Part shown: positions 1 through 1,794 of the stretch, piece after piece | How positions within the stretch are numbered: the stretch's first letter is position 1 | Layout: each line of letters starts with the position of its first letter | NCBI GenBank assembly: GCA_021106775.1 | Contig: JAIOTL010000309.1 | Location: 1-5,093 of the forward strand | DNA: 5,093 nt | Direction: 5' to 3' | Origin: Planctomycetota bacterium | GTDB taxonomy: Bacteria > Planctomycetota > UBA8742 > SKZP01 > JAIOTL01 | Position numbers and translations under genes: made by a program | The notes under the pieces: generated by a model | The model's database searches: none | What the model was told of the DNA's origin: nothing | What the model saw: only the letters and a program-made list of their open reading frames with translations

Positions 1-582
1 TCTTTCACCGAGGGGTTCTCCATCTACTTCAAAATAATTAGAGATTCTAGATTTATCCTTTATTTTACCTCTTAGAAGGTCAGCTATCCATTTGGATTCA
101 TTAGCAGAGTGACCAGCGTATGGAGGATTTCCAATTACTACACTTATCTGGGAATTTGCTTTGATTTCATCTGCTCTACGTCCTTCTTCTGCCAACCAAT
201 TTAAAAAAGCATCTAATGTCCCAGCGCCCTCGTGTGTCCCCTCTAAAGTATTTGTTAAATAGACACCAAGCCTCTTATCTGATTTGAAATCATAATCGGT
301 CTCGGCCAATTCCAAACCTAGTTTGAGATGAGCTACTGCATAAGGTGCAGCCATTAATTCAAAGCCAAAAATTCGTGGGAGTAAATGTTTTGGAACATAC
401 TTGTTCCATTCCTCTTTTAGCTCATCTTCACTTAATTCCTTATGTTTTTCATCAAAAGTACTTTTTATTTCTTTTATAACGTATTTAAGAAAGGTTCCCG
501 TACCTGTTGCCGGATCAAGAACTTGTACTTTTGGCACTTCTTTCACATCTTCTATGAGTTTCTTACTCCTTTTTGATTTACG
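1..582 (-). pseudogene. Catalytic part of a gamma-class adenine-N6 DNA methyltransferase, after an in-frame stop; runs off the left edge
   Basis: This 194-codon open stretch follows the TAA at 585-583 in the same frame as the 403-residue protein upstream, with no further stop up to position 1. It holds the S-adenosylmethionine-binding motif I, DPATGTGTF (516-490), and the catalytic motif IV, NPPY (129-118), about 120 residues apart. That order and the NPPY form are typical of gamma-class N6-adenine methyltransferases such as Eco57I-like and type ISP enzymes, which transfer a methyl group to adenine in a DNA target site. Between the motifs lies a conserved-looking stretch (FGFELMAAPYAVAHLKLGLE, about 369-310). 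Motif X sits in the preceding protein, so the two pieces look like one enzyme split by a single stop. No ATG or TTG start lies early in the frame; the first possible starts before motif I are GTG at 546-544 and 537-535. The C-terminal target-recognition part lies beyond the window. Family assignment is firm; whether this piece is translated is unknown. Confidence 0.85.
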
Positions 583-585
583 TTA
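583..585 (-). other. In-frame TAA separating motif X from motif I of the methyltransferase
   Basis: Reading through this codon gives LADTSTTKLKY-stop-RKSKRSKKLIEDVKEVPK and then VQVLDPATGTGTF in one frame, with no shift needed. The basic linker on both sides and the spacing from LADT to motif I look like those of intact relatives. A single base change from AAA, GAA or CAA would produce the TAA. TAA is not the pyrrolysine codon (UAG), so that kind of recoding does not explain it. Confidence 0.9.
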
Positions 586-1794
586 ATATTTTAGTTTTGT
601 AGTTGACGTGTCAGCAAGACCATCAAGACAATCAAACTCTGTTCGGAGAATATGGTCTACCGATCTAACAATAAACGATACCACAGGATCAGGTGTGGAA
701 AAGACCCCCCTCTTAATCCTCTGGTGGGAATCGTATTCTCGTAAAAAATCTTCATAAAAATGGATTACAGGGTCTTCATTTTTTTTCTGCCGTCCAAAAT
801 CTTGCAGGACAGCTTCAATATTACTTTCTTTTAGTAATATAATTAATTCTGATACACCAAGTTCCACAAGGTTGAGATTATCAGAAACTGAATCACCTAA
901 TCTCGTGCATTCTTCAAAAAGATTTTTTAAAAAAGGATTGGTGTTTGGTATCATTGCAGAAATATCCTCAACTTCAAAATCGCGCTCGTGGGATGCCCTG
1001 GCCGAGAATAAACCATAGGTAATTGTTTGGGCATACATATCTGCAAATGAATCAATTGTTAAGTCATGAATCAATACCTGTTCGAAATTGTCAAATAGAT
1101 TGTGCAGTGGTCCATTTTTCATTTCATATTCAAAAACGTCCTTAATTCGGTCTCTTATTTGAATCGCCAGTTGTGCCATAGCAGTAGCTAACTGCTGAGA
1201 TGTGCGGATTACTTCACGATGTTTAAGTCTAAATGCTGAAGTCCATTGTTCGCGCCAGGCATCTGCATCGCTTTCGTCATCAGGCCAACTTAATTTTTCG
1301 AGCTCAATTCGAGTTTGTGCATAATGGAAATGCGTATCCATTACATCCCATGAAACAGTTCTCAGTTCTGGAAGACCATCCGACGTTTCCGAAAAATGAG
1401 CAAATGAAACCTGCCGATTTTCCGTCTCACCTAAAGAAGAAATGAATATCAAATCATGTAGGTTCCATGACTTCATCCTGTCATCTCTTTTCCTACTGGA
1501 AAAAATGAGAGCTCTAAGAAGTCTTCGTAAAACCACTACAGGTAATTTTTTAGTTTCAAAATCAATATAAAATAATCCCCACGGCTGATTATCTGTTAAA
1601 GGACGAATCTGTTTAATGGTTTTTATCTTTGGCACATATTGTTCTTCAATACCCAGGTCTTCAGGAGTGTAATCAAAGGTTATGTCCTCTGCATCCTCTG
1701 CCTCAATTGGCCAATATAACTTATCCTTAAGATAATCTACCAATGATTCGAAGCTATTAATATTTTTCAAATCCAAAATTTCAGACGTTGACAT
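583..1794 (-). CDS. N-terminal part of a gamma-class adenine-N6 DNA methyltransferase (403 residues, ended by a stop inside the methyltransferase domain)
   Basis: The protein matches the front end of large Eco57I/type ISP-like N6-adenine methyltransferases, from memory of that family. Residues about 14-100 form an N-terminal domain with IKQIRPLTDNQPWG (60-73) and LPVVVLRRLLRAL (84-96). Residues 190-340 look like a helical domain with FADMYAQTITYGLFSAR (250-266), a stretch characteristic of these enzymes. Residues 362-376 (RGVFSTPDPVVSFIV) match motif X, which helps bind S-adenosylmethionine. The protein then stops at residue 403, before motifs I and IV, which lie in the same frame just downstream. 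Full-length relatives run to roughly 1000 residues, so alone this piece should not methylate DNA. No PD-(D/E)xK nuclease signature is evident. The ATG start is backed by AGGAA 8 bases upstream. The gene starts 13 bases after the helicase gene on the same strand, so the two are probably co-transcribed and would act as the modification and restriction arms of one system. Confidence 0.88.
   Translation of the reverse strand: MSTSEILDLKNINSFESLVDYLKDKLYWPIEAEDAEDITFDYTPEDLGIEEQYVPKIKTIKQIRPLTDNQPWGLFYIDFETKKLPVVVLRRLLRALIFSSRKRDDRMKSWNLHDLIFISSLGETENRQVSFAHFSETSDGLPELRTVSWDVMDTHFHYAQTRIELEKLSWPDDESDADAWREQWTSAFRLKHREVIRTSQQLATAMAQLAIQIRDRIKDVFEYEMKNGPLHNLFDNFEQVLIHDLTIDSFADMYAQTITYGLFSARASHERDFEVEDISAMIPNTNPFLKNLFEECTRLGDSVSDNLNLVELGVSELIILLKESNIEAVLQDFGRQKKNEDPVIHFYEDFLREYDSHQRIKRGVFSTPDPVVSFIVRSVDHILRTEFDCLDGLADTSTTKLKY

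Follow-up and report, generated by a model that had tools for sequence, protein, structure and literature searches.

Among the closest known systems is DrdV (7lo5, 7lvv), a Type II enzyme that carries an N-terminal nuclease on a single chain and has no known helicase partner, in which it differs from the locus described here, where the helicase is a separate partner. Type ISP enzymes such as LlaBIII and LlaGI hold nuclease, ATPase, coupler, methyltransferase and target-recognition domain (TRD) in one chain, with an Mrr nuclease and an SF2 ATPase in front, as outlined in PMC4666363; according to PMC4872093, the methyltransferase domain and the TRD jointly grip the target site. In CglI and NgoAVII, a PLD-family nuclease and an SF2 helicase-type ATPase stand beside a methyltransferase, and in the description given in PMC4267653 the PLD protein bears a B3 recognition domain, the helicase is separate and the methyltransferase is a C5 enzyme. 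DUF499-centred loci related to Type-2 BREX show an N-terminal HKD (PLD) nuclease on a Swi2/Snf2 helicase together with an N6-methyltransferase, and additionally hold a DUF499 ATPase and DUF3780, as presented in PMC12839542.

The window, that is, the whole stretch of 5,093 nucleotides analysed here, contains an intact helicase gene and, just downstream of it with 13 bases between them, a methyltransferase frame interrupted by a stop codon (Table 1). The helicase had C3a139 'HKD+Snf2' as its best PADLOC match, and its RE_NgoFVII domain recalls the CglI/NgoAVII nucleases. No Pfam match to an Mrr nuclease was found in this chain (E 0.01), which has a PLD-like domain instead, nor in P0133, a close full-length relative of the methyltransferase. 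The likeness to Type ISP enzymes lies in the methyltransferase, whose family has the coupler-MTase-TRD half and the Type ISP C-terminal specificity domain: an intact relative matched the coupler-MTase-TRD half of LlaBIII and carried the specificity domain PF18135 at residues 759-1088, beyond the position of the stop. Unlike in Type ISP enzymes, however, the motor is here a separate gene with a PLD-like domain, and the methyltransferase has an N-terminal domain of its own of about 190 residues. The same separation was seen in an intact archaeal pair (L119:10326-16715), in which a PLD-SNF2 helicase is followed by the methyltransferase chain. By its domains and gene order, the methyltransferase provides the modification chain in a two-gene system of Type ISP-like make-up, and the module resembles a Type ISP enzyme that is divided over two chains and equipped with another nuclease. 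This PLD-helicase and methyltransferase module recurs in many bacterial loci, and was found in archaea and several bacterial phyla. Ten flanking ORFs taken from 9 related loci included neither DUF499 nor DUF3780. No experiments on a pair of PLD-helicase and Type ISP half were found in the literature searched, nor was any paper recognised there as dealing with the pair, which is not to claim that the pair itself is absent from the literature.

Table 1. Features of the 5,093-nucleotide window.
Feature	Position	Strand	Details
PLD-like and SNF2-type helicase gene, intact, ending in TAA	1808..4882	-	1024 aa; Pfam PLDc_2, RE_NgoFVII, SNF2-rel_dom, Helicase_C
Methyltransferase gene, first part	583..1794	-	403 codons and TAA; 97.8% identical to P0133 residues 1-403
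Helical coupler and motif X region, residues 197-370, predicted to be retained in the truncated product	685..1206	-	
Motif X, GVFSTP; Ser (codon 366, 699-697) in place of an aromatic residue	691..708	-	Sequence, alignment column counts
TAA in frame (codon 404), within the linker that joins motifs X and I	583..585	-	Sense codon in the eight closest full-length relatives found
First GTG after the stop, possible restart, poorly spaced	544..546	-	AGGAG at 570-566, 19 bases before the GTG
Continuation of the methyltransferase frame	1..582	-	194 codons, runs off the window; 98.5% identical to P0133 residues 405-598
Motif I, DPATGTGTF	490..516	-	Sequence
Motif IV, NPPY	118..129	-	Sequence

About 190 residues at the N-terminus of the methyltransferase (window 1210-1794) contain conserved positions, e.g. 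W28, P65, F79, W110 and W149, and gave no Pfam match and no clear fold match. This domain may dock the helicase.

The earlier note, made from the letters of the window, had reported a 403-residue protein followed by 194 further codons in frame without a stop. Both the ORF listing and the window sequence bear this out: the minus-strand ORF runs from 1794 to 583, including its TAA (585-583), and beyond this codon no further stop occurs in frame between 582 and the window edge at position 1. When aligned with related methyltransferases, the frame after the stop proved so similar to P0133 that it is not a chance opening, and it matched the Pfam families MmeI_Mtase, Eco57I and N6_Mtase. Counting residues puts motif X, the SAM-binding motif I and the catalytic motif IV where the note had placed them. 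The protein does not end with motif X as had been stated, since 35 residues come after it. Relative to the ANME-2 genome G215, dN/dS was 0.129 in residues 172-403 of the methyltransferase, 0.125 beyond the stop and 0.140 in the helicase. These alike and low values before and after the stop indicate that the part beyond it was under normal selection until lately.

A break shared by relatives would point to a natural two-chain enzyme. Among the best 80 of 112 genome loci, both halves of the methyltransferase were present in 79, and in all 79 they lay in a single open frame (in L049 the second half is represented by 22 residues only); at the 80th locus, L002, the match runs off the contig. In agreement with this, two broader samples of 369 and 392 genomes gave 6 and 10 positive genomes, both centre genomes included, and 16 of the 17 matched places were within open frames of at least 586 codons, while the 17th, in G954, starts at the first base of its contig. 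Of the full-length proteins found, the eight closest (P0133, P0138, P0135, P0136, P0139, P0140, P0152 and P0132) are all unbroken, at 1,100-1,122 residues, and each has a sense codon where the window has its stop, though the residue encoded varies. A natural split at the linker between motifs X and I, one of the readings offered in the earlier note, was ruled out on these grounds (0/79 two-half loci).

Because a protein database cannot show stops, shorter proteins were also inspected, namely the best 120 of 1777, ranked on the N part. They end at many different positions. An excess of ends fell at residues 375-399 (17 of the 120 listed, and 12 of the 60 with an unaligned tail), but we do not count it as a hot spot: the variable linker is unaligned, which puts every end within it at 398, and the N part determined the ranking of the list. 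The test is weak. In P0001 (69%) a foreign tail starts at about residue 383, which implies that other breaks near this linker do occur. The only near-identical short protein among the matches listed was P0004 (97%), whose foreign tail begins after residue 268 and not at the linker. This tail is 18 residues long and, read by eye, fits a tandem duplication of about 40 bases with a frame change.

The note had also seen no sign of decay. That does not fully hold, as it overlooks the serine in motif X. Among 121 aligned relatives, residue 366 was never Ser but Tyr (117) or Phe (4); across loci it was Tyr in 84/85 and Phe in 1/85, and a second set of 98 relatives, which overlaps partly with the first, had 96 Tyr, 1 Phe and 1 His. 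Two other changes were private to the window, Asp500 (92 Gly, 5 Glu and 1 Lys in the same column of the 98 relatives) and Glu164. Two of the three are non-conservative, in contrast to none of the private changes of P0138 or P0135. In number, the changes of the window (3, the stop not counted) did not exceed those of P0138 (3) or P0135 (4), three of the proteins compared being near-copies of one another that score zero by construction. The argument for decay therefore rests on the kind of change and not on the number, and Ser366 fits a gene that is no longer maintained.

Taken as observed are the stop itself, the intact close relatives, the lack of the same break at any locus examined and the intact helicase frame. 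From these we lean, with only modest confidence, towards a nonsense allele that arose recently and is private to this copy; in this reading, the gene encodes a single-chain N6-adenine methyltransferase, which supplies both modification and target recognition to a two-gene, ATP-dependent Type ISP-like system. Alternatively, the real gene may be intact and the stop a product of faulty base calling or assembly of a metagenomic contig, perhaps through thin end coverage or strain mixing; such an error fits as well and is a serious possibility, though we find it less probable than a real allele. Both belong to the ordinary options of the earlier note (recent nonsense mutation or error), which are favoured by a stop present in no relative, intact near-identical chains and low dN/dS on both sides. 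An error would account for the clustering of the stop, Ser366 and Asp500 within the 700 bases nearest the window edge, where assembly may be poor (Glu164 lies outside), and this clustering, like the unraised count of private changes, speaks against a real allele; the edge is, however, only possibly a contig end. The methyltransferase is moreover a mosaic: residues 1-60 are P0138-like (0 differences, vs 7 from P0133), residues 361-420 are P0133-like (1 difference, vs 12 from P0138), and in a blockwise comparison residues 61-598 equal P0133 except at 164, 366, 500, 530 and 549, plus the stop. This ancestry could be that of a chimeric contig, but recombination between strains yields the same mosaic. 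The tail of P0004, if the reading by eye is right, is another possible assembly fault in a near-identical gene. Against an error, the helicase has no excess of private changes, with 13 at 782 comparable sites vs 17, 18 and 17 in its three nearest relatives.

The remaining readings of the note fared worse. A freshly split enzyme, cut between motifs X and I, would reassemble from the 403-residue N part (N-terminal domain and coupler) and a C part whose translation restarts at GTG 546. The linker varies in length across the methyltransferase family (the stop column is a gap in 84 and a residue in 14 of 98 full-length relatives), and in the P0133 model residue 404 lies in the first strand of a hairpin at 398-406, predicted to be clear of the helices and strands that form the core of motifs X and I, so that a chain break here is structurally conceivable. 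The GTG lies 12 codons past the stop and ahead of motif I, but the Shine-Dalgarno-like AGGAG is poorly spaced from it, motif X carries Ser366, and no relative among the 79 loci is split at this linker, so that we hold this reading to be barely alive and very improbable. Still less probable is a switchable state in which intact and stopped versions alternate in the population. Nearly the same protein exists intact (P0133) and broken (the window and P0004), yet P0004 is broken at another place, and no mechanism is known that would switch a point change back and forth. Nor did searches for repeats reveal such a device at the stop: there was no tandem repeat at 583-585, no simple-sequence or inverted repeat spans the stop, and the inverted pairs at or flanking it amounted to one weak 37-nt pair with 70% complementarity that reaches into the helicase gene. 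Phase variation was rejected on the absence of a switching repeat. Least probable of all is that the stop is read through or recoded. The frame beyond it is conserved in sequence, but a recent loss would account for this just as well; a sense codon stands here in close relatives, and no positive support for readthrough was obtained. As the helicase gene upstream ends in TAA, this codon terminates genes here, and reassignment of TAA was rejected.

If the nonsense allele is real, translation would end at codon 404, giving a 403-residue fragment with the N-terminal domain and the coupler and without the SAM-binding core, the catalytic motif and the target-recognition domain. Since target recognition sits in the methyltransferase chain, the PLD-helicase partner would, by analogy with LlaBIII and LlaGI, also lose its aim. 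Restriction and modification would then be off together, the nuclease would not poison its own cell, and the loss would be tolerable. Such a loss should be harmless because the cutting chain is left without its guide, and the locus would represent one more restriction system silenced through the loss of a chain responsible for both marking and aiming.

Other damaged copies of the module were found in 2 of 28 loci, several of which end early at contig ends. In L016 the methyltransferase match is interrupted between P0133 residues 632 and 625 by about 3.3 kb (L016:7876-11222), and the helicase match is in one piece; this implies that loss of the methyltransferase chain beside a helicase reading frame occurs elsewhere. 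The ORFs of the insert, judged by eye, are presumably pieces of an IS110-like transposase. L010 (L010:2087-9454) shows frame changes in both the helicase and the methyltransferase matches. The more useful subject is, in our opinion, the wider locus, in which a PLD-helicase gene accompanies the coupler-MTase-TRD half of a Type ISP enzyme.

The closest named relatives of both proteins, P0203 for the methyltransferase and P0238 for the helicase, come from ANME-2 cluster archaea, and the host of the system is probably an ANME-2-type (methane-eating) archaeon. A viral or plasmid origin was rejected: searches of viral contigs gave no exact match to a 31-base stretch beside the stop, and five related viral contigs were 36-40% identical to the later portion of the query; no phage record matched, and of the 58 plasmid records that did, none covered more than 80% of the query. 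A search of Rfam gave no match at the gathering score. The system is rare, as with strict cut-offs the methyltransferase was found in 2/392 genomes of the phylum sample and the helicase in 2/185 genomes of the order of G215. A radical-SAM protein and a methenyl-H4MPT cyclohydrolase are encoded by the ORFs past the helicase in G215. The gene that immediately follows the intact archaeal pair (L119:16880-17770) codes for a nucleotidyltransferase whose SMODS match is weak and falls below the cut-off; it may be another defence gene.
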